Source of the DNA: Hyphomicrobiales bacterium
GTDB taxonomy: Bacteria; Pseudomonadota; Alphaproteobacteria; Rhizobiales; CAJQND01
Assembly (NCBI GenBank): GCA_028285595.1
Contig: JANQOW010000070.1
Coordinates: 19,259-83,258, forward strand
Direction: 5' to 3'
Length of the DNA: 64,000 nt
Positions 16,888-27,729 of this stretch are shown here, one piece after another. Positions within the stretch are counted from its first letter, which is position 1. Each line of letters starts with the position of its first letter. The notes beneath the pieces are model-generated. The model saw only the letters and a list, made by a program, of their open reading frames with translations. It was not told the origin of the DNA and made no database searches. A program made the translations under genes and the position numbers.

Positions 16888-17119
16888 GAGCGGTATCCTC
16901 CAAATCATCGGGCAACAGCGGCTCGCGCGTGACCTGTTCCCCTGAACGATGAGTTTTCAAGATCAAGAGGACGATGAGCAAACTGCCAATCACCAGGGCG
17001 ATGAGAAAGGCATTGAACTGGATCACGTGTGTGCGGGCGCTGCCGGCCCAGGCCATAAGCGCAGCCACAAGCACAACAAGCGCCCAGTGCCAGGGTTTGC
17101 CCAGAAAGATGTCACGCAT
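16862..17119 (-). CDS. Small two-helix membrane protein downstream of TRAP permease
   Basis: An 85-aa protein with two hydrophobic helices (about 10-27 and 34-52) and an acidic C-terminal tail rich in Glu and Asp. ATG 17119 overlaps the end of the permease gene by 8 bases, so it is translationally coupled to the TRAP system. Small membrane proteins sit at this position in other TAXI TRAP clusters, to my recollection, but the role is unknown. An upstream extension to 17167 would lie inside the permease gene and looks unlike a conserved N-terminus. Confidence 0.65.
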   Translation of the reverse strand: MRDIFLGKPWHWALVVLVAALMAWAGSARTHVIQFNAFLIALVIGSLLIVLLILKTHRSGEQVTREPLLPDDLEDTAHEQEEANT

Positions 17120-19130
17120 CGCTTTGACCTTCCGCCGTTTGTCCGCCAGCCAGTAGTCTTGGAACAATCACCACAGCGGCCATCACGAGACCGGCAATCT
17201 CCCAAATGTATCCGGCTATACCCAGGACGGGTTGATTTGGCGGGATCAGAATGAACGCCGCCGCAAGCAACATCATCAGGCGGTGTGTCCCCTTCACGGA
17301 ACCGCGATACCAACCTTCAATTGCAATAGAGAGCACCCACAGGCCTGCAAGCACGAGAACGCCTGAGAAAACCGTAAGCCATAAGGGACCTACAAACAGC
17401 AGAGCAGGATTGTAGACGAAGACCAATGGAACGAGATACTTGGCGATGCCGACCCGCGTCGACTCAATTGCCGTGGCCATGGGCGGTGTCTTCGCAATCG
17501 CTGCACCGGCAAACGAGGCAAGGGCCACCGGTGGTGTGATCGTTGAGACAACACCGAAGTAAAACGCAAACATATGGGCCGCAATCGGCTCCACACCGAT
17601 CTTGACCAGCGCCGGCACGATAAGCGCGGCAACCGTTATGTAAACCGCCGTTGTCGTGATGCCCATCCCAAGGATGATTGCGGACACGCCGGTCAAGCCA
17701 AGGAGGATCAGCAGATTGCCCCCGGAAAGATCAATAACCGATTGGGTGAACTTCAAGCCCAGCCCCGAAACGAAGACGGACCCAATGATCAATCCAGCGC
17801 AGGCACAGGCAATGGTTACCGGCATAGTGGCCCTGATCCCCGCCTCTAACGCGGCCACGAGATCCACCGGGCTCATGCGGGTGCCCTTATTGATGAAGCT
17901 CAAGCAGAAGAGGGAAACCAGGCCCCAGAATGCGGACTTCATCGGCGTGTAACCGGCCATCAAGAAATAGACAAGCACGCCCAGAGCGATCAGCAGATGC
18001 CATCCCCCGCGCAGCACCCGGCCAGCTTGCGGAAGGCGGGATCTCTCAATCTGCCCAATGCCGTTCTTTTCAGCTTCCAGGTGGACCATGAAATAGACGG
18101 TCGCAAAGTAGAGAAAGGCCGGTATCGCCGCGGCGACAATGATGTTGGTGTAGGCGGTGGTGAGAAACTCCGCCATGATGAAAGCCGCCGCGCCCATGAT
18201 CGGCGGTGTGATTTGACCGCCGGACGACGCACAGGCTTCCACCGCGGCAGCAAACTTTGCGCGGTATCCCAAGTTCTTCATCAGCGGTATGGTGAAGGAT
18301 CCGGTGGTGACCACATTGGCCACGGCTGAACCGGACACGGTGCCCATAAATCCGCTGGCAACCACGGAAGCCTTCGCCGGTCCGCCGGTCCTGTGTCCCG
18401 TAAGGGCCACCGCAAGATCGATGAAGAAGCGTCCCGCACCGGACCGGATGAGAAGCGCGCCAAATATGATAAAGAGCACGATGTAGGTCGAGCATACGTG
18501 CAACGGGATGCCGAACAGTCCGTCACTGCTCATGAACAGCACATCGATAAACTTGCCGAAGCGCACAGGCGGTCCGTAGAAGAAGCCGAAGAAGTGATTG
18601 GCATAAAGCGAGTGGATCACAAAGAAGCCGGTGATGAGCACCATGGCCCAGCCCACGGCCCGCCGGGTTGCCTCCAAAACCAGGCCGATAAGGATGCCGC
18701 CAATGATAAGGTCGGGCAGCTCCTTCTCGCCGTACCTCAGATGAAATGCTTCGATGTCCCAGATGGTCCAAAGCTGGATGAAGATTATGAGACCAACAAT
18801 CACCAGATCTACGGCAAAACCGAACAGGCGCAGCGCGTTACCGGGGCTGCCTTCCACAAACACTGGGTCGCGCACCGACTTGCGGAAGAGCGGAAATGAG
18901 AAGAACGCCAAAATCAGCATTCCGGACAAGTGGACGGAGCGGAAGGATCGACCCTCCGGCGTGCCGAACGCGGCCACGTAAATGTGGAACAGGGCAAGCC
19001 CGAGCGCAATCACCGTGCAGCACAGCAGAACGCCATAGGTGATGGCGGACACGCGGCCCACCAGCAGGCGCTCCAAATAGCCGAGCTCCTGCTTTTCTTC
19101 ATAAATTATCTGGGTTTCAGCAACGCTCAT
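17112..19130 (-). CDS. TRAP transporter fused permease (4TM-12TM, DctQM type)
   Basis: A 672-aa inner-membrane protein combining the small DctQ and large DctM domains, as is usual for TAXI-type TRAP systems. Roughly 18 hydrophobic helices are visible. The DctM half has GTVSGSAVANVVTTGSFTIP, GGQITPPIMGAAAFIMAEF, GLIIGSVFVSGLGL and PPVALASFAGAAIAKT, the family's ion and substrate helices. Transport is secondary, driven by the Na+ gradient. ATG 19130 (MSVAETQI) is preferred over the upstream in-frame start. It lies 85 bases after the binding-protein gene. C-terminal helices run into the overlapping small gene. Confidence 0.92.
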   Translation of the reverse strand: MSVAETQIIYEEKQELGYLERLLVGRVSAITYGVLLCCTVIALGLALFHIYVAAFGTPEGRSFRSVHLSGMLILAFFSFPLFRKSVRDPVFVEGSPGNALRLFGFAVDLVIVGLIIFIQLWTIWDIEAFHLRYGEKELPDLIIGGILIGLVLEATRRAVGWAMVLITGFFVIHSLYANHFFGFFYGPPVRFGKFIDVLFMSSDGLFGIPLHVCSTYIVLFIIFGALLIRSGAGRFFIDLAVALTGHRTGGPAKASVVASGFMGTVSGSAVANVVTTGSFTIPLMKNLGYRAKFAAAVEACASSGGQITPPIMGAAAFIMAEFLTTAYTNIIVAAAIPAFLYFATVYFMVHLEAEKNGIGQIERSRLPQAGRVLRGGWHLLIALGVLVYFLMAGYTPMKSAFWGLVSLFCLSFINKGTRMSPVDLVAALEAGIRATMPVTIACACAGLIIGSVFVSGLGLKFTQSVIDLSGGNLLILLGLTGVSAIILGMGITTTAVYITVAALIVPALVKIGVEPIAAHMFAFYFGVVSTITPPVALASFAGAAIAKTPPMATAIESTRVGIAKYLVPLVFVYNPALLFVGPLWLTVFSGVLVLAGLWVLSIAIEGWYRGSVKGTHRLMMLLAAAFILIPPNQPVLGIAGYIWEIAGLVMAAVVIVPRLLAGGQTAEGQSDA

Positions 19131-19215
19131 GGGCCGCCCGGGTGCGATAACACAAAGACCGGTGGTGCACGCTGCCAGGCAGCGTGCAGCCACTTAACGT
19201 TCAATACTGCTGGTC

Positions 19216-20181
19216 TTAGCTGTTGCCGCTGACCCCGAGCTCTTTGTAACACTTGGCCGCACCGGGATGCACCGGAATCGCCGCACCTGCCAACGCGTCT
19301 TCAAGCTTCACACGCTTCCAGATGCTCTTAACTTCGGCAAACGTGGCGTGGTTTTCCCAGAACGTCTTGCACATATTGTAGACGAGCTCTTCGGGAAGGT
19401 CTTTGTGCACCACCATATTGGTGACGATCCCGAGGGTGTGGAGATCCTCGTCAATGCTCTTGTAGACACCCTTTGGCATCTTGCCGGGGATAAACCCGGG
19501 GTTGGCTTCAAGGATTGAGTCCAGCTTGTCCTTCGGAAGACCGATAAAGCGGATACCAGGGCTATGTTCCAGCTCGATGAACGAGGCCTGGGGCATGGAC
19601 GTGGCCGCCATAAACACTTCAATGTGCTTATCCTTCATAAGGGCAACCGACTCTGTATAGCTCACGTGATGAACGGTGCCGCCATTGGCCTTAATGTCTT
19701 GGAAGCTTATGCCATAAGCCTTCAGAATGGATTCCGCGAACGCGGTGCCGGTCCATTTGGCTTTGCCGGGGCTGATATTGGCCGCCTTCATATCCTCGAA
19801 AGTCTTGATTGAGGAATCCGACCGCACGGCCACCTGGAACATCGCCGGGTAAAGCGTTGCAAAGTGGCGCACGTCTGGTTGTGCTTTCTTGAACTTGCCC
19901 TTGCCCGAAAAGCCGTTGAATGCGGTGTGGGCGTATGACCACCCGATTTCAGCATCCCCGCCGTTCACCGACAGAATGTTTGAAATTCCCCCACCCGATG
20001 TGTTCGAGGTGGTGATGCCATCAATCTTCTCATCAAAGACTTGCATGATCTTGGCGCCGAGCGGATACCAGGATCCTCCAGAGGGACCGGAGACCATCCT
20101 GAGGAATTGATCAGCTGAGGCCGATTGTGTGCCCAAACCCAAAGCCAGTGTGGCAGCTGCTGCCAATAGTCTGATTTTCAT
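19216..20181 (-). CDS. TAXI-family TRAP transporter substrate-binding protein
   Basis: A 321-aa periplasmic protein with a clean signal peptide (1-23, SASA-DQF). The TAXI signature VSGPSGGSWYPLGAKIMQ starts the mature domain, followed by TSNTSGGGISNILSVNGGDAEIGWSY, the two-lobed fold, and EVFMAATSMPQ. The ribosome site GGAGGAG is excellent. It precedes the fused permease and small membrane gene in one transcript. Ligands of TAXI proteins include glutamate-type and other carboxylates, but most are unknown, and nothing here fixes the ligand. The BCCT/betaine block lies across a 444-base divergent gap. Confidence 0.93.
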   Translation of the reverse strand: MKIRLLAAAATLALGLGTQSASADQFLRMVSGPSGGSWYPLGAKIMQVFDEKIDGITTSNTSGGGISNILSVNGGDAEIGWSYAHTAFNGFSGKGKFKKAQPDVRHFATLYPAMFQVAVRSDSSIKTFEDMKAANISPGKAKWTGTAFAESILKAYGISFQDIKANGGTVHHVSYTESVALMKDKHIEVFMAATSMPQASFIELEHSPGIRFIGLPKDKLDSILEANPGFIPGKMPKGVYKSIDEDLHTLGIVTNMVVHKDLPEELVYNMCKTFWENHATFAEVKSIWKRVKLEDALAGAAIPVHPGAAKCYKELGVSGNS

Positions 20182-20625: not shown

Positions 20626-22179
20626 ATGTCTGATTCAAACGGCTCTGGATTATCCGTCAATACAGTATTTTTGGTCTCGATGGGCTTCTGCGTTGCGATC
20701 GGCGCATGGGGTCTCATTGATCCAGATAGCATGACCGGAACCATGCTTGGTTTCACCAACTACATGCTTAAGAGCGGCAGTTGGGCGTGGTTGTTCTTGT
20801 GCACCTGTTTCCTCTTTTTGACAGGGTACATGGCGTTCGGTCCGTACGGAAAAATCCGCCTTGGGGCCGACGATGAAGAGCCGGAGTTCTCCACCGCTTC
20901 CTGGATCGCCATGTTGTTCGCAGGCGGAATGGGATCGGGCCTGCTGCTGTGGGGCGCCGCAGAGCCTATGTACCACTATATCAGCCCGCCCGGAATGGAG
21001 GGTGGAACGCCGGCCGCGGCCCGCCAGGCCCTCGTGATCACCAATCTGCACTGGGGGCTTCATGCTTGGTCGATCTACGCCGTGTGCGCCTTGGTGATTG
21101 CTTACTTCACGTTCCGGCGCGGCGAATCTTCAATGATCTCGACCCCGATCAAGGCACTCTTCCCTGGCCAGACCGGCGAGAGCGTCGGAAAGATTGCTGA
21201 CATCCTGGCCGTACTGTCGGTGGTGTTTGGTCTGGCAGGTTCACTGGCCATGGGCACCTTGGGCGTGCGCTCCGGATCGTTCTATGCGTTCGGCACCTCG
21301 CAAACGGTAACCGCCTCCATGGTGATCCTGGTTATTCTGTTTGTCTGCTACATGCTGTCAGCCACCACTGGTGTGGACAAAGGCATCAAGATCCTCTCCA
21401 ACATCAACATGGTCATCGCCGTGCTGATCATGTTGCTGGTGCTTTTTGCAGGACCAACCCAGTACATCCTGGAAGCCTTCATCGACAGCATTGGCGCCTA
21501 CTTCAGCAGCATTTTCATAATGTCCTTCAAGCTCTTTCCCTTTGAAGGTCTAACGGGCTGGAGTGCGGGGTGGACCCTCACCTATCTGATTTGGTGGCTC
21601 GCTTGGGGTCCGTTTATCGGCATCTTCGTTGCGCGGATTTCGCGAGGTCGTACCATCAGAGAATTCTGCATCGGCGTCGTCATGGTCCCGACCCTGTTCT
21701 CCATGCTGTGGTTCGCAGTCTTTGGCGCGGCCGGGTTCTATATCGAGATACACGGTGGTGGCGGCCTGAAGGAGTTGATCTTCGAGGACGTGACAAAAGC
21801 TCTCTTCGGCTTCCTCAGCTACTTCCCGGCGGGCAACATCCTCAACGCCCTGGCGGTTGCGCTGATGTTCGTCTTCCTGGTGACGTCGGCCGATTCTGGC
21901 ACCTTCGTCCTGTCGATGATGACCACGGATGGAAATTTGAACCCGCCCGTCATGCAAAAGATGGTGTGGGGCTCGCTGATCGCCGCTCTTACGGCCGGCA
22001 CCCTCTTCTCAGGCTCGGTCACGGTGGCCAAAGCGATGGCCATTACAGGGGCCATACCGTTCTCGGTGATTGTGATGTTGCAGATAGTCGGTTTCTTGCG
22101 GGAGATCCGCAAGGAGCGTACGGACTTGCCCAAACCCATCGAGGCTCGCGGCGCTGCCGTAGGCCAGGCTGAATCTTGA
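20626..22179 (+). CDS. BCCT-family transporter (betaine/carnitine/choline type)
   Basis: A 517-aa inner-membrane secondary transporter with about twelve helices. Diagnostic segments are GGMGSGLLLWGAAEPMYHY (glycine-rich first repeat helix and cation site), NLHWGLHAWSIY, the aromatic-rich WTLTYLIWWLAWGPFIGIFVARISRGRT and FVFLVTSADSGTFVL. BCCT carriers take up quaternary ammonium compounds with Na+ or H+. The N- and C-terminal tails are short, which argues against the osmosensing type with a long C-terminus (BetP). It is followed 26 bases later by the dual-binding-domain lipoprotein and then uspA, all apparently one transcript. Confidence 0.93.
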   Translation: MSDSNGSGLSVNTVFLVSMGFCVAIGAWGLIDPDSMTGTMLGFTNYMLKSGSWAWLFLCTCFLFLTGYMAFGPYGKIRLGADDEEPEFSTASWIAMLFAGGMGSGLLLWGAAEPMYHYISPPGMEGGTPAAARQALVITNLHWGLHAWSIYAVCALVIAYFTFRRGESSMISTPIKALFPGQTGESVGKIADILAVLSVVFGLAGSLAMGTLGVRSGSFYAFGTSQTVTASMVILVILFVCYMLSATTGVDKGIKILSNINMVIAVLIMLLVLFAGPTQYILEAFIDSIGAYFSSIFIMSFKLFPFEGLTGWSAGWTLTYLIWWLAWGPFIGIFVARISRGRTIREFCIGVVMVPTLFSMLWFAVFGAAGFYIEIHGGGGLKELIFEDVTKALFGFLSYFPAGNILNALAVALMFVFLVTSADSGTFVLSMMTTDGNLNPPVMQKMVWGSLIAALTAGTLFSGSVTVAKAMAITGAIPFSVIVMLQIVGFLREIRKERTDLPKPIEARGAAVGQAES

Positions 22180-22205
22180 TCAACGGCAGAAAAGGAGAGC
22201 TGAAC

Positions 22206-24062
22206 ATGTTTAAACGCACACTCTTTGCTATCCTGGCCGTTGCGTTCCTCGCTGTAGGTTGCAGTGACGACAATCAGTCAGTGAAAATCGGCAGTAAGAA
22301 CTTTGGCGAAAGCAATGTTCTGTCGCACATGATGGCCATTCTGGCCAAAGAACAGGGCCTGAAGGTGGATGGTCCGGTTGAGTATGCGTCCACGCAAGCC
22401 ATTCTGGCGGCCCTTAAACAAGGCGATGTGGACGTTTATCCGGACTACAATGGTACAGGCCTGGTCATGCTTGGCCAGAACCCGATCTCCGATGGAGATA
22501 AAGCCACCGAACGCGTGAAGGCCTTGTATGAACCTTTGGGCCTGACGTGGCTGCCTCGCTTCGGTTTTGCCAATAATTACGGGCTTGCCATGCGGGCAGA
22601 TCGGGCCAAGGAGCTCGGTTTGAGCACGATGTCCGATCTGATTGCCCAAGCCGGTTCCTTGAAGCTTGGAATTGAAGACGATTTTCAGGGACGCCCGCTG
22701 GACGGCCTCACGCCGATGCTGAGCCGGTACGGCATGTCATTTGGCTCGGTTGAAGTTGTGAAGTTGGACGATCGTGCCAAGCTCTACGACATGTTGCTCG
22801 ATGGGAAGGTTGATGTGGCCGAGGTCTACACAACCGATGGCCAAATTCCTGATTTTGATCTGAAGATCTTGCAGGATGACTTGGGGTTCTTCCCGGTTTA
22901 TCAAGCCGCCCCGCTGGCCCGCGCAGATGCCCTGAGCAAACACGCAAACCTTGGCAACGCAATCAGTGCTCTGGCAGGCAAGATTGACGGAACCTTGATG
23001 CAAAAGCTCAATGCGCGCGTTGACGTTGAGGGCCGCTCGGCGGAAACCGTCGCGCGCAATGCGCTACTTGAGCTCGGGTTGATCAAAGGCGGCACTGTGA
23101 CCACGGATGAGCCGTTACAGGTCGCATCCACATCCTCGATCGCGGCCTCGGAGCTTGCCACCACGGCCCTGCGGGCGACCCGACGTGCGTTCCCCGGCCG
23201 CGAGGTGAAAGTGTCTACGGAGGGGAGCCCGCTGGGTAAACTGGCATCCGGCGAGGCCCGTCTGGCACTTGTTGGCGCCGATGAGTTCTTTGAGCTCACC
23301 GGAACCGTTCCGTCGCGCAACAACCAGTATGAAGCTGTGGCGGTGGCCGGTCAAAACGTCGTTCACCTAGTCGGGAAATCAAACCTGAAGAGCGGCGGCA
23401 ATCCGGATCTTGCGAATATCAAGACCATTGCCACCGGTCCGGAAGGATCGGACACAGCGCGCCTGGCCTCAATCCTCATTGACGGATTGGGCATGAAAGC
23501 GACACTGAAACCTGTTGAGGCCGGAACGCCTGAAGCGGTTATTGAAGCGCTCACCTCCGGACAGGCCGATGCTGCACTGGTTGTTGCCCCGCTCGGCAAC
23601 AAAGCCATCACGCAGATGATCGATGGTGTGTTGTTTGCCGTACTGCCGTTGGACGCCTGGAAGGAAGGGGCGAACTTGGTCCGCTTTCCGTTCTTGAGGG
23701 AAGTGCGGATACCGGCGAACACTTATCGGGTCCAAAGGTCTGCCATCGACACTTTAGGTGTCCAGGTCGTGCTCGCGGGGATGGCCCCGGTGACCGGGGA
23801 TGCCGTGGGTGATCAGGGACCAAGTTCGGTGCAAACGAGCATTCCGCCCATCCCGGCCTCCACAGTGAAAACGCTCGGCGATGCGATCCCAGGCTCGGTT
23901 AATGTCGATCCCACCCTTCAGCAGTCAGCCGCCTTAGCGCCGGCGCTGCCTCAACCACCGTCAGCAATCAATCCGGCTGCGGATATCTCGCTGCTGAACT
24001 TAGCGATTGTTTTGTTGTTCATCTGGCTGTTCTGGCTCTATAGCCGGCCTGAACGTACGTAA
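22206..24062 (+). CDS. Lipoprotein fusing OpuAC/OsmX-type and TAXI-type binding domains with a C-terminal membrane anchor
   Basis: A 618-aa envelope protein. Residues 1-19 form a lipoprotein signal (FLAVGC, lipid-modified Cys19). Residues about 25-290 match the OpuAC/QAT binding fold for compatible solutes: KIGSKNFGESNVLSHMMA, YASTQAILAALKQGDVDVYPDYNGTG and VAEVYTTDGQI. Residues about 300-530 look like a TAXI/NMT1 lobe pair: IATGPEGSDTARLASILID, EALTSGQADAALVVA, and RIPANTYRVQ followed by TLGVQVVL. A Pro-rich linker leads to one helix near the C-terminus (LNLAIVLLFIWLFWLY) and a short basic tail. AAAGGAGAG precedes ATG 22206. There is no ABC ATPase or permease here; the neighbours are a BCCT carrier and uspA. 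It may deliver or sense ligand for the BCCT (inference). Confidence 0.85.
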   Translation: MFKRTLFAILAVAFLAVGCSDDNQSVKIGSKNFGESNVLSHMMAILAKEQGLKVDGPVEYASTQAILAALKQGDVDVYPDYNGTGLVMLGQNPISDGDKATERVKALYEPLGLTWLPRFGFANNYGLAMRADRAKELGLSTMSDLIAQAGSLKLGIEDDFQGRPLDGLTPMLSRYGMSFGSVEVVKLDDRAKLYDMLLDGKVDVAEVYTTDGQIPDFDLKILQDDLGFFPVYQAAPLARADALSKHANLGNAISALAGKIDGTLMQKLNARVDVEGRSAETVARNALLELGLIKGGTVTTDEPLQVASTSSIAASELATTALRATRRAFPGREVKVSTEGSPLGKLASGEARLALVGADEFFELTGTVPSRNNQYEAVAVAGQNVVHLVGKSNLKSGGNPDLANIKTIATGPEGSDTARLASILIDGLGMKATLKPVEAGTPEAVIEALTSGQADAALVVAPLGNKAITQMIDGVLFAVLPLDAWKEGANLVRFPFLREVRIPANTYRVQRSAIDTLGVQVVLAGMAPVTGDAVGDQGPSSVQTSIPPIPASTVKTLGDAIPGSVNVDPTLQQSAALAPALPQPPSAINPAADISLLNLAIVLLFIWLFWLYSRPERT

Positions 24063-24081
24063 TTAAGAGGAGATCATCACC

Positions 24082-24537
24082 ATGGCTGGAAAGACATTAG
24101 TGCCAATCGATCTCAGTGATATGGAGACCTCATCGAAGGTTCTTGCGGCCGGGGTCAGCCACGCACGGCAAGATGGGAGCAGCCTTGTGATCATGTCAGT
24201 GGTTCCACACATGATCTCCGGGATTGACTATCGATATGCCATTCGCGGTGAAACCGGGGGGTCGGAGGAGTTTGACGCAAAGGCGATTGTGCAAGAGACG
24301 CTGGAGCGGCTCAACGAAGTGGTGAGCGACCATCTCCCGAACGACATGAAGGCGGAAACAATCGTGCGTCACGGTTCGGTGTACGAACGTATTCTTGAGG
24401 TTGCCGATGAGATTGAACCCGATCAGATTGTGATCGGCGCGCACCGTCCTCAGCTTTCCGACTACCTTCTGGGCCCCAACACGGCTCGGGTGGTTCGGCA
24501 TGCGAAGTGTTCGGTCAATGTGGTGCGCACGCAATAG
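24082..24537 (+). CDS. Universal stress protein (UspA family)
   Basis: A 151-aa cytosolic protein of the Usp alpha/beta fold: TLVPIDLSDMETSSK at the N-terminus, IVRHGSVYERILEVADEIEPDQIVIGAH in the middle, and LLGPNTARVVRHAKCSVNVVR at the C-terminus. The ATP-binding G-2X-G-9X-G-S/T motif is incomplete (second Gly replaced by Arg, final Ser/Thr by Pro-Asn), so nucleotide binding is uncertain. AGAGGAG lies upstream. It is 19 bases after the lipoprotein gene. In the ectoine TRAP system TeaABC, a Usp (TeaD) down-regulates transport; a similar role for the BCCT here is an inference. Confidence 0.9.
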   Translation: MAGKTLVPIDLSDMETSSKVLAAGVSHARQDGSSLVIMSVVPHMISGIDYRYAIRGETGGSEEFDAKAIVQETLERLNEVVSDHLPNDMKAETIVRHGSVYERILEVADEIEPDQIVIGAHRPQLSDYLLGPNTARVVRHAKCSVNVVRTQ

Positions 24538-24543
24538 CGGTCT

Positions 24544-25203
24544 TTAGGGAACAGAGCGCGCCCTCAGGATTGCGATGAACTGCTGTGTCTCACGTTCGGA
24601 TGGCTCGCGGCCGGTGAAACATCTGAGGTAATCGCCAATATATCCCATCCGGGTCTCAATGCTCTCACCCAACTCAAGGGCGTTGTAGCCGATCTGCATG
24701 AAGTACAGCACGCGTGCGCGTATGAACGCGTCCTGTTCGTCATAACCATGCCGTAAGTAGAGCTGCTTGACAGCTTCGACGCGCGTATCATCTGCAATGT
24801 CAACCTGCCGGCGGACCTCCTCGGAACGCCTTGCCCATTCACGGATGGCAAAGTCCAGCCGCGGCTCATAGAGGGTGCGGTCGACCCAACATTCAAAGAT
24901 ATGGATCACTCCCTCAAAGATCGAAGCTGACGGCAACCCGGCCTGCACGGTGATGGCTTGCGTATTCGTTTCGCGCCAGCGTTCAAGCAACGCCTCTAAC
25001 AACTCGGTGCGGTTCAGAAAATGCCAGTAGAAACTGGCGCGCGCCACGCCAAGCCTTTTGGCAAGCGTTAGAATTTTCACACTCTCAACCCCGTCAGCCA
25101 GCAACATCTCCTGCGCGGCCAGCAGCCAGTCGAGACGGGTTGCCTTGGTATGCGCAGGCGGGACTGCTTGTTCGTACGGTACATCGGTGAGCGGTTTTCC
25201 CAT
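24544..25203 (-). CDS. TetR/AcrR-family transcriptional regulator
   Basis: A 219-aa repressor-type protein. Residues about 22-70 form the helix-turn-helix domain (LDWLLAAQEMLLADGVESVKILTLAKRLGVARASFYWHFLNRTELLEALLERW), with the classic VARASFYWHF recognition helix; the C-terminal two-thirds is an all-helical ligand-binding domain. It converges on uspA with a 6-base gap and diverges from the flavoprotein gene at 25315. The 24-bp palindrome between them, beginning 16 bases before this ATG, is the obvious operator, suggesting autoregulation and control of the dehydrogenase. Confidence 0.92.
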   Translation of the reverse strand: MGKPLTDVPYEQAVPPAHTKATRLDWLLAAQEMLLADGVESVKILTLAKRLGVARASFYWHFLNRTELLEALLERWRETNTQAITVQAGLPSASIFEGVIHIFECWVDRTLYEPRLDFAIREWARRSEEVRRQVDIADDTRVEAVKQLYLRHGYDEQDAFIRARVLYFMQIGYNALELGESIETRMGYIGDYLRCFTGREPSERETQQFIAILRARSVP

Positions 25204-25219
25204 GAAGCTGCATTAATCA

Positions 25220-25243
25220 CGTCTAGACACATGTGTCTAGACG
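25220..25243. promoter_or_regulatory. 24-bp perfect palindromic operator, TetR/dehydrogenase
   Basis: CGTCTAGACACA is followed immediately by its exact reverse complement. Each arm contains the 8-bp self-complementary GTCTAGAC (25221-25228 and 25235-25242), so the site can be read as two sub-palindromes 14 bases apart, suited to one or two TetR dimers. It lies between the divergent starts at 25203 and 25315. Confidence 0.85.
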
Positions 25244-25314
25244 CATTATGGAAGCGAGATTAAACATGCGTCACAAGAGCTGCGGCTCCACCACCGGGCA
25301 GAGGAGATGTGCCG

Positions 25315-27729
25315 ATGAAATCGCAATACCGTGTAGCAATCATTGGCGGGGGCGTTGTGGGCGCTTCGATCGCTTATCACCTCACCAAGCTCGGCTGGTC
25401 TGATGTGGCCATTTTGGAGCGCAGCGTGCTCACCGCCGGTTCATCCTGGCATGCGGCGGGCGGCATCCATGCCTTGAACGCAGACCCCAACATTGCCGCG
25501 CTCCAAGCCTACACCATCGACGTTCTGGCTCAACTGGAAGAAGAGACCGGCCAGGCAACGGGGCTGCACATGACCGGCGGCATCACCTTTGCCTCCACAC
25601 CGGACCGCTGGGAGTGGCTCCAGGCTGCGTACCGCGTGTTCCAAACCATGGGGATTGAAGATGTGCGGCTCATGAATGTGGAGGAGATGGTTGACGCCTG
25701 CCCCGTCATGAGCCCGGACAATGTGCTGGGAGGCATGTGGGCTGACCGCGAAGGATACGTGGACACAACCGGTGTTGTGCATGCCTATGCAAAGGGCGCG
25801 CGCAACCGTGGGGCTGATGTGATCGAACACAATCGTGTCGTGGAGCTTAACCAGCGGCCTGATTATTCCTGGGACGTGGTCACGGAAAAAGGCACCATTC
25901 ACGCCGAACACGTCATTAACGCTGGGGGCTTGTGGGCAAAGCAAGTGGGCCGGATGGCTGGTTTGGATCTGCCGGTCTCCCCGCTTGAGCACCATTATCT
26001 TGTCACCGATGACGTTCCGGAAATCGCCAGTGCGGGGTTTGAGATGCCCATGATGGTCGATCTCGACGGCTTCACCTATGCGCGTCAGGACCAGAACGGC
26101 ATGCTGGTGGGGATCTATGAGCTGGATCATCAGCATTGGAATATGGACGGCGCGCCCTGGGACTATGGCTTTGAGCTTGTCCAAGAAGACTTCGACCGCA
26201 TTGAGCGGGAACTGGAGATCGGGTTCAACCGTTATCCGGCGTTGGCCAATGTGGGCATCAAGCGTTGGGTCAATGGCGCGTTCACCTTTACGCCGGATGG
26301 CAACCCGCTCGTAGGCCCCGTTCAGGGGGTTCCAAACTATTGGTGCGCTTGTGGGGTGATGGCCGGATTCCTTCAGGGTGGCGGTGTCGGCAAATCGCTG
26401 GCCGAATGGATGATCCACGGGGAGCCTGAAGGAGATATCTACGGCATGGATGTGGGGCGCTACGGCGAGTTTGCGTCAAACCGCGAATACATCAAGCAAA
26501 TGACCGGCCAATTCTACTCCCGCAGGTTCGTCATGAGTTACCCAAACGAGCAGCTTTGGGCCGGCCGGCCGCTTAAGAAGGCCCCCGCGTATGACGCCAT
26601 GACTGACAACGGTGCCCGTTGGGGCGAAAGCTGGGGCTTGGAAGTTCCGATTTACTTTGCGCCAAAGGACTTTGAAGAGATCCCTACCCTAAAGCGGTCG
26701 AATGCCTTCGATATGGTGGGCGAAGAGTGCAAGAAAACGCGCGAAGGTGTGGGCCTCATCGACATTAGCGGTTTCTCCCGTTTCGAGATTACCGGGCCCA
26801 ATGCTCAAAGCTGGCTAGATAAGGTGTGCGCCAGCCGCCTGCCCGGCCCCGGGCGCGCCCGGTTGGCGCCTCTGCTCACCGAAAGCGGGCGTTTAAAGGG
26901 CGACCTTACGGTGTTCAATTGGGGCGATGGCACGTGGTGGTTGATGGGGTCCTACTACTTGCGCTCATGGCATATGCGCTGGTTCCATGATCTGGCGGCA
27001 GACGGTGTTGAGGTGCGCGATATATCCGATCAAATCGTTGGCTTCGGTCTTGCGGGTCCTCAATCGCGCGATCTGTTACAAACGCTGACCCATCAGGACC
27101 TCTCCCACGAGGCATTGCCATTTATGGGCTGCATGGAGGTTGATGTTGGACTTCTGCGCACCAAAGTAGGCCGACTATCCGTGGTGGGAGAGCTTGGGTA
27201 CGAAATCAACTGCTCGGCCGCTGAACACATCACACTCTATCGCATGCTGAAAGAGGCCTCCGCCGGGTTTGATGCGGTTGAGTTCGGGTTCAATGCCATG
27301 AACTCCTTGCGTCTAGAAAAGAGCTTCGGAGTGTGGTCACGCGAGTTCATGTGGGGGTACACTCCCGCCATGACCGGTATGGACCGCTGGATTGACTGGC
27401 AAAAACAGGACTTTATCGGCCACAAGGCCGCGATGGCAGCGCGTGATGGCGGGCCGGCCGCGCAGCAGATTGTCACCCTCGAAGTGGACGCTTCGGATGC
27501 AGATGCGTCCGGCTACGAGCCAATCTGGCAAGGCGATAAACGGGTGGGCTATGTGACCTCCGGCGGATATGGCTATTGCGTAGACAAGTCGCTTGCCATG
27601 GCGCTCGTGGATGAGAGCTGCGCCACTGCGGGCACGGAGCTGGATGTACACATTGTGGGTGTGCTGCATAAAGCCCGTGTGATTGCAAACTCGCCCTACG
27701 ATCCAAAAGGCACAAAGATGCGGGGTTGA
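25315..27729 (+). CDS. Dimethylglycine/sarcosine dehydrogenase-like FAD + GcvT protein
   Basis: An 804-aa cytosolic flavoprotein. The N-terminal DAO domain (1-380) opens with the Rossmann motif VAIIGGGVVGASIAYHLT and has SSWHAAGG, where the His corresponds to the covalent FAD attachment site in DMGDH and sarcosine dehydrogenase. An FAO_M linker follows. From about 430 a GcvT (aminomethyltransferase) domain has FDMVGEECKKTREGVGLIDISGFSRFEI, VGELGYEINCSAAEH and RLEKSFGVWSRE, with a C-terminal barrel. These enzymes demethylate N-methylated glycines and pass formaldehyde to tetrahydrofolate. Substrate could be dimethylglycine, sarcosine or a related N-methyl compound. GAGGAG lies 8 bases before ATG 25315. 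It is divergent from the TetR gene. Confidence 0.88.
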   Translation: MKSQYRVAIIGGGVVGASIAYHLTKLGWSDVAILERSVLTAGSSWHAAGGIHALNADPNIAALQAYTIDVLAQLEEETGQATGLHMTGGITFASTPDRWEWLQAAYRVFQTMGIEDVRLMNVEEMVDACPVMSPDNVLGGMWADREGYVDTTGVVHAYAKGARNRGADVIEHNRVVELNQRPDYSWDVVTEKGTIHAEHVINAGGLWAKQVGRMAGLDLPVSPLEHHYLVTDDVPEIASAGFEMPMMVDLDGFTYARQDQNGMLVGIYELDHQHWNMDGAPWDYGFELVQEDFDRIERELEIGFNRYPALANVGIKRWVNGAFTFTPDGNPLVGPVQGVPNYWCACGVMAGFLQGGGVGKSLAEWMIHGEPEGDIYGMDVGRYGEFASNREYIKQMTGQFYSRRFVMSYPNEQLWAGRPLKKAPAYDAMTDNGARWGESWGLEVPIYFAPKDFEEIPTLKRSNAFDMVGEECKKTREGVGLIDISGFSRFEITGPNAQSWLDKVCASRLPGPGRARLAPLLTESGRLKGDLTVFNWGDGTWWLMGSYYLRSWHMRWFHDLAADGVEVRDISDQIVGFGLAGPQSRDLLQTLTHQDLSHEALPFMGCMEVDVGLLRTKVGRLSVVGELGYEINCSAAEHITLYRMLKEASAGFDAVEFGFNAMNSLRLEKSFGVWSREFMWGYTPAMTGMDRWIDWQKQDFIGHKAAMAARDGGPAAQQIVTLEVDASDADASGYEPIWQGDKRVGYVTSGGYGYCVDKSLAMALVDESCATAGTELDVHIVGVLHKARVIANSPYDPKGTKMRG

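Follow-up and report, generated by a model that had tools for sequence, protein, structure and literature searches.

A gene for a carrier of the BCCT family, a gene for a lipoprotein that fuses two different solute-binding domains and a gene for a universal stress protein (Usp) lie together in the 64,000-nucleotide stretch of a Hyphomicrobiales bacterium that we analysed (the window; contig JANQOW010000070.1, positions 19,259 to 83,258). We find the carrier gene directly upstream of the fusion gene in every related locus that allows the comparison, and it is very likely that the two proteins form a functional unit. The reading that we favour, and judge somewhat likelier to be right than wrong, is that the three genes encode a binding-protein-dependent betaine importer whose lipoprotein delivers a betaine-like solute to the BCCT.

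20626..22179, + strand: BCCT-family carrier, 517 residues (PF02028, TIGR00842, BetP-type aromatic box)
22206..24062, + strand: fusion lipoprotein, 618 residues, with OpuAC half, TAXI half and C-terminal helix (Pfam, predicted structure)
22206..22262, + strand: lipoprotein signal and lipobox cysteine C19 (invariant in 116 alignment rows)
22278..23087, + strand: OpuAC/ProX-type binding domain, residues 25-294
23097..23951, + strand: TAXI-like domain, residues 298-582
23979..24044, + strand: predicted C-terminal membrane helix, residues 592-613 (model helix, hydrophobicity)
24082..24537, + strand: UspF-like universal stress protein, 151 residues (PF00582, UspF relatives, nucleotide motif)

A sequence-only reading of this DNA had already placed the BCCT, the lipoprotein and the Usp, with gaps of 26 bases between the first two and 19 bases between the last two, and its coordinates and gaps are exact. 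All three genes lie on one strand, and each start is preceded by a purine-rich stretch that resembles a ribosome-binding site. A sequence scan found no terminator-like site in either gap and no promoter-like site on the + strand. Only their spacing speaks for co-transcription of the three genes.

Conservation and spread of the gene set

We compared 30 distinct loci besides the window, including a Paracoccus aminovorans plasmid and one of two Martelella plasmids, and excluded matches to OpuAC only from the count. Two of these loci (L003 and L042) start inside the lipoprotein gene; in all 28 that can be tested, the BCCT gene is directly upstream of the fusion gene. Since the same order recurs in these relatives, the order in the window is more than chance, and fusion homologues pair with BCCT genes and not with ABC permeases, as the sequence-only reading had expected. 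The Usp gene follows downstream in 25 of the 30 loci (in L052 it starts 390 bases on), and intergenic gaps range from -4 to 28 bases across the 20 loci measured, with starts chosen by script. Outside the cassette, the genes vary among the loci examined, the L038/L032 pair being the exception: the flanks hold a DsbA-like protein, a 2-oxoglutarate oxygenase and a hydantoinase in L033, GNAT and sulfatase genes in L130, an FAD oxidase and a nitrilase-type gene in L046, an acyl-CoA dehydrogenase in L044 and a LysR gene in L037. That the order is conserved while the surroundings change speaks for selection on the BCCT-lipoprotein-Usp set. In the Paracoccus aminovorans plasmid the match to the BCCT (L031:6416-7932) is split into two pieces that lie in different frames, and this gene is probably either broken or affected by a sequencing error; the lipoprotein and the Usp beside it are intact.

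Whole-genome searches were run on class, order, family and phylum samples, which overlap, and the large searches scored 3-4 candidates per genome. The full-length fusion is present in 2 of 385 class genomes, 6 of 397 order genomes (OpuAC alone in 2 more) and 6 of 295 genomes of one family (OpuAC alone in 1). A second order yielded it in 15 of 61 genomes, one of them cut by a contig end, together with one fusion of a distant type and 2 cases of OpuAC alone. Both of the 2 phylum genomes that carry it, among 398, belong to the class of the window, and OpuAC alone occurs in 29; we thus found no window-type fusion outside the class at this depth of scoring. Strains of Roseovarius and Pelagibius are among the matches that carry names.

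The distant type is represented in context by a single locus (L113:7336-10544), which is counted among the 28 and has a BCCT upstream and no Usp. Its BCCT is 43% and its lipoprotein 28% identical to those of the window. A search seeded with the L113 lipoprotein gave 29 further relatives (P0124-P0152) with the same layout and 26-28% identity to the window type; 2 extra proteins matched via OpuAC only. Since some lipoproteins of this second type carry gammaproteobacterial names, the fusion architecture is probably not confined to Alphaproteobacteria.

Among the 385 class genomes, a BCCT at least 60% identical to that of the window occurs in exactly the two fusion genomes. We checked 16 fusion genomes, and in each the BCCT most similar to that of the window stands beside the fusion, at 60-89% identity in the 14 other genomes with the window's type of fusion (type I) and 43% in the distant type. 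The remaining BCCTs of these genomes, and those of 6 fusion-free genomes, reach 43% at most (one genome has none). Around 18 distinct loci of other BCCTs, no neighbour resembling either half of the lipoprotein was found (E 0.01; mostly 1.1-1.5 kb of flank). Across the 17 loci that have all three genes, inter-locus distances correlate between BCCT and lipoprotein (r 0.965), BCCT and Usp (r 0.921) and lipoprotein and Usp (r 0.947).

A different account would make the lipoprotein the stray binding protein of an ABC system, working with an OpuA permease whose gene lies elsewhere, and the BCCT a separate uptake route that is merely co-expressed. The OpuAC half does come from an ABC-associated family, and databases label the protein a glycine betaine ABC transporter binding protein. 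Four proteins with OpuAC only (L012, L013, L028 and L029) show what such a setting looks like: an ABC ATPase lies within 1.5 kb in 4 of 4, and L013 also has a permease. At the cassette loci, in contrast, ATPase matches are at least 2 kb away and no OpuA permease was matched beside the fusion in the loci read, and we therefore dismissed an ABC partner in the cassette. Co-occurrence of the BCCT clade with the fusion in the 385-genome sample also speaks against the stray-protein account, which we regard as very improbable. Inside the window cassette, no ABC or TRAP membrane gene was matched with Pfam, and no DctM match was found inside the cassette in the loci read.

The lipoprotein, the carrier and the Usp

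The predicted structure of the 618-residue lipoprotein (predicted local distance difference test, pLDDT, 89.9) shows an OpuAC fold and a TAXI-like fold, and both domains exceed their Pfam cut-offs, in line with the fusion that the sequence-only reading had proposed. PF04069 (OpuAC) matches residues 25-287 with 178.6 bits (cut-off 21.2), and NMT1_3 (TAXI) matches residues 348-531 with 54.8 bits (cut-off 27); a TAXI-like fold in the second half was a check named beforehand. The label 'OpuAC/OsmX-type' stands in its OpuAC part, whereas OsmX is loose, with the NCBIfam OsmF model at 120.9 against a cut-off of 400. We also found the two anchors that had been claimed, an invariant lipobox C19 and a predicted C-terminal membrane helix. 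Outside the signal, the most hydrophobic 19-residue stretch starts at residue 594; the hydrophobic helix spans about residues 592-613 and is followed by a short basic tail, leaving about six residues in the cytosol for the window protein. The lipoproteins of L043-L052 have longer cytosolic tails past the membrane helix, with a DLHITPAK-like stretch in 8 of these 10 (not L043 or L044). One record, P0108 (767 residues; OpuAC, TAXI and Usp), was considered as a lipoprotein-Usp fusion and rejected, as the junction after the helix reads like a frame change; the record at least confirms that the two genes adjoin.

Conservation was read from an alignment of 116 rows. Of these, 16 are locus proteins; the other 100, with the window protein among them, come from the 121 proteins P0001-P0121 (the search took the best 120 of 283 matches). 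The betaine cage of ProX, which we take to consist of K13, Y63, T66, Y111, R149, Y190 and Y214, aligns with K31, Y81, T84, Y125, R163, Y208 and Y232 of the window protein. Y81, T84 and Y232 are invariant. K31 and R163, the ProX Lys and Arg positions, change once each, both in the one row of the second, distant type that was checked. Y125 is Phe in 5 rows, and Y208 is Phe in 19, Val in 2 and Leu in 1. Mean conservation is 0.72 for the OpuAC half versus 0.60 for the TAXI half.

The TAXI half has lost key ligand residues of its family. VcGluP depends most on Y45 and Q93, whose mutation costs 213- and 990-fold in affinity, as given in the accessible portion of PMC11574862. We read the equivalent positions by eye. 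Residue 357, at the Q93 position, is Gly in 72 rows, Ser in 20, Glu in 9, Ala in 8 and other residues in 7, and is never Gln, and only 7 of 116 rows have a Tyr anywhere in residues 305-322, the Y45 region. On these positions we rejected an intact glutamate-type site, and by sequence the TAXI half probably does not bind the canonical TAXI ligand. The narrower NCBIfam TRAP_TAXI model is missed as well (46.6 against a cut-off of 84.35). Because the ProX cage is kept while the key VcGluP residues are lost, we infer a solute-catching role for the OpuAC half and, possibly, one as spacer or dock for the TAXI half. The genome of the window also encodes a 597-residue protein (L125:1411-3204) in which a TAXI binding domain is combined with a caspase-like Peptidase_C14 domain.

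Alternatively, both sites could work, with betaine in the OpuAC half, a second ligand in the TAXI half and uptake that depends on or responds to both. Both domains are predicted as complete folds, and another ligand is possible because Q93 is present in just 54% of the TAXI sequences studied (PMC11574862, as far as the text seen goes). We nevertheless think two working sites improbable, given the lower conservation of the TAXI half, the change in kind of residue at position 357 and the scarcity of Tyr in the Y45 region.

The window BCCT scores 533 bits with PF02028 (cut-off 27) and reaches the subfamily model TIGR00842 (442.3 vs 407.55), but misses the betaine_BCCT equivalog (503 vs 650). The aromatic substrate box of BetP, which we take to be W189, W194, Y197, W374 and W377 (numbering anchored on W189), is retained in all 17 paired BCCTs, that of the window among them, and in almost all of 14 other BCCTs. 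At the position of BetP W371 all 17 paired BCCTs have Leu, compared with none of the 14 others (Trp in 9, Met in 5), and the distant pair in L113 has Phe. The paired BCCTs form one group, and the Leu may therefore reflect ancestry and not adaptation.

The window Usp matches PF00582 with 76.8 bits (cut-off 24) and has UspF proteins as its closest solved relatives, though it stays below the cut-off of the NCBIfam UspF equivalog (93.5 vs 166). The R-8x-G nucleotide motif (G-AH-R-8x-GPN) is present in 19 of 20 Usps checked, that of the window included. It resembles the A-SH-R-8x-GSN motif of Klebsiella UspF, a degenerate motif in a protein that holds ATP in 3FDX according to the part of PMC3673472 available. 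ATP binding and, by analogy, a TeaD-like role of the Usp are suggested by its position and motif only. Since the narrower NCBIfam models (betaine BCCT, OsmF, TRAP_TAXI and UspF) are missed, the BCCT, OpuAC, TAXI and Usp proteins are members of their families and not close copies of the named proteins.

Substrate delivery and regulation

If the lipoprotein delivers substrate, we envisage the following sequence. The OpuAC half would close on a quaternary-ammonium or sulfonium zwitterion through its ProX-type cage, and the TAXI half, which lacks the key ligand residues of its family, would serve as spacer and docking module. The N-terminal lipid and the C-terminal helix would keep the lipoprotein over the periplasmic mouth of the carrier. 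The outward-open BCCT, which retains its aromatic box, could then receive the released solute and import it by ion-coupled symport. On the cytosolic side, the Usp would bind ATP and tune the carrier, in the manner that TeaD suggests. Direct coupling of BCCT and lipoprotein is likewise something that we infer. Delivery gains weight because the ProX cage is kept and because no such partner was found beside other BCCTs.

Regulation is the main rival of substrate delivery. On this view the lipoprotein would sense solute in the periplasm and, once loaded, gate or tune the BCCT without delivering anything, and this would produce the identical pairing of BCCT and fusion genes. One predicted helix crosses the membrane, in one group of relatives the cytosolic tail is longer and includes a conserved stretch, and the Usp, a likely regulator, is downstream in most loci. 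With its box intact, the carrier could also transport alone. However, the cytosolic tail of the window protein is too short for a signalling domain, and the pocket is of a type that serves high-affinity scavenging in its relatives. Overall we consider a sensor unlikely, and delivery of solute to the carrier remains the reading that we prefer.

Several points weigh against delivery. Gene order, domains, predicted folds and residues make up the support, and contact, ligand, transport and regulation lie beyond it. To our knowledge BetP, BetT, DddT and other stand-alone BCCTs operate without a binding protein; as other BCCTs need no partner, the lipoprotein may only modulate the carrier. Common descent accounts for some of the conserved order and some of the distance correlation. 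All 17 paired BCCTs cluster in a single tree group (support 86/95, not starred). Five of the 30 loci (L032, L037, L038, L113 and L135) lack a Usp. In the BCCT tree the distant pair (L113) groups with five unpaired BCCTs, and because it sits among unpaired BCCTs, one gain plus one loss and two gains are both possible origins of the pairing. A 1145-residue read-through query for a natural single chain of BCCT and lipoprotein gave 3 matches, none with a BCCT domain, among the 7995 best word-sharing candidates; the absence of a natural fusion among the scored candidates is unlike TAXI-GltS, for which natural fusions exist (PMC12344293, in the portion consulted). Moreover, a model of the BCCT-lipoprotein read-through (L035) has a predicted template modelling score (pTM) of 0.49 and a mean pLDDT of 78.7 with no confident docking, a weak test in which 5 of the 78 alignment rows had 58-62 residues misplaced. 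Altogether, the binding-protein-assisted or binding-protein-regulated BCCT that the sequence-only reading had suggested is partly supported.

Known systems and neighbouring genes

The closest parallel that we found is TAXI-GltS of Bordetella pertussis (BP0403/BP0402), in which the gene for a long TAXI lipoprotein is coupled to a symporter gene (PMC12344293, seen in part). Both systems have an elongated multi-domain TAXI lipoprotein whose gene adjoins that of a secondary carrier outside TRAP and ABC, and coupling awaits experimental demonstration there too (PMC12344293, same portion). The Bordetella carrier is GltS (ESS), modelled as an elevator type, and not a BCCT; its partner lipoprotein binds glutamate through the TAXI domain and has an additional domain that is no binding protein (PMC12344293, in the sections accessible). 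Here the OpuAC half has an intact cage, the TAXI half has lost its key residues, and a C-terminal helix and a Usp are additional. The present set would thus work like TAXI-GltS but is not a member, because the carrier family differs. The main text of PMC12344293 does not mention BCCT, betaine or OpuAC.

The same authors (Commun Biol 2025) propose that an elevator mechanism may be required for a carrier to use a binding protein (PMC12344293, from the part available). BCCT proteins have a LeuT-like fold (PMC13270143, likewise in part), and for this reason the present set makes the elevator requirement testable. We place even weight for and against the BCCT being the first secondary carrier of LeuT fold to work with a binding protein of its own. 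That partner would be a chimera, anchored at both ends, whose ABC-type domain catches the betaine and whose TRAP-type domain has lost its ligand site and docks. If this is true, binding-protein dependence is not limited to elevator carriers and the BCCT fold has a new working mode. The same reading would account for a protein family that databases list under ABC components, and betaine-scavenging bacteria would gain a binding-protein-assisted route without direct use of ATP.

Other known systems share single elements with the set. Family and aromatic box are common to the window BCCT and BetP, BetT and DddT. ABC systems of the OpuA/OpuC/ProX type share the OpuAC half with its ProX cage, but the present set has no ABC permease or ATPase and has the TAXI half and membrane helix in addition. 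TeaABC is a TRAP transporter, and TeaD is said to have a regulatory role, going by the title of Schweikhard et al. 2010. In Halomonas elongata the genes of this compatible-solute transporter, with its binding protein, likewise lie next to a Usp gene (PMC9453808, partial view), whereas the carrier here is a BCCT and the set has no TRAP membrane gene. In the open-licence PubMed Central literature, viewed in part by title and start of abstract, we found no description of such a BCCT-binding-protein-Usp set.

The sequence-only reading had also stated that the set contains no ABC ATPase or permease, which agrees with our matches; a TAXI-TRAP pair is found just outside the set, on the opposite strand. 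This pair (17112-20181) is divergent from the BCCT set, consists of a binding protein and a DctM-type membrane protein, and thus has its own binding protein. Of the other loci read, only the same-genus relative L001/L035 again has this TAXI-TRAP binding protein close to the set. The loci L032 (a Martelella plasmid) and L038 are related and both without Usp; in each, a linear amide C-N hydrolase of the choloylglycine hydrolase family (L032:4952-6022 and L038:10020-11087) adjoins the BCCT-lipoprotein pair, and this neighbour may hint at another substrate. Downstream of the set in the window (24544-27729) are a TetR regulator and an 806-residue DAO-FAO_M-GCV_T enzyme of the dimethylglycine/sarcosine dehydrogenase kind, a combination that fits betaine catabolism.

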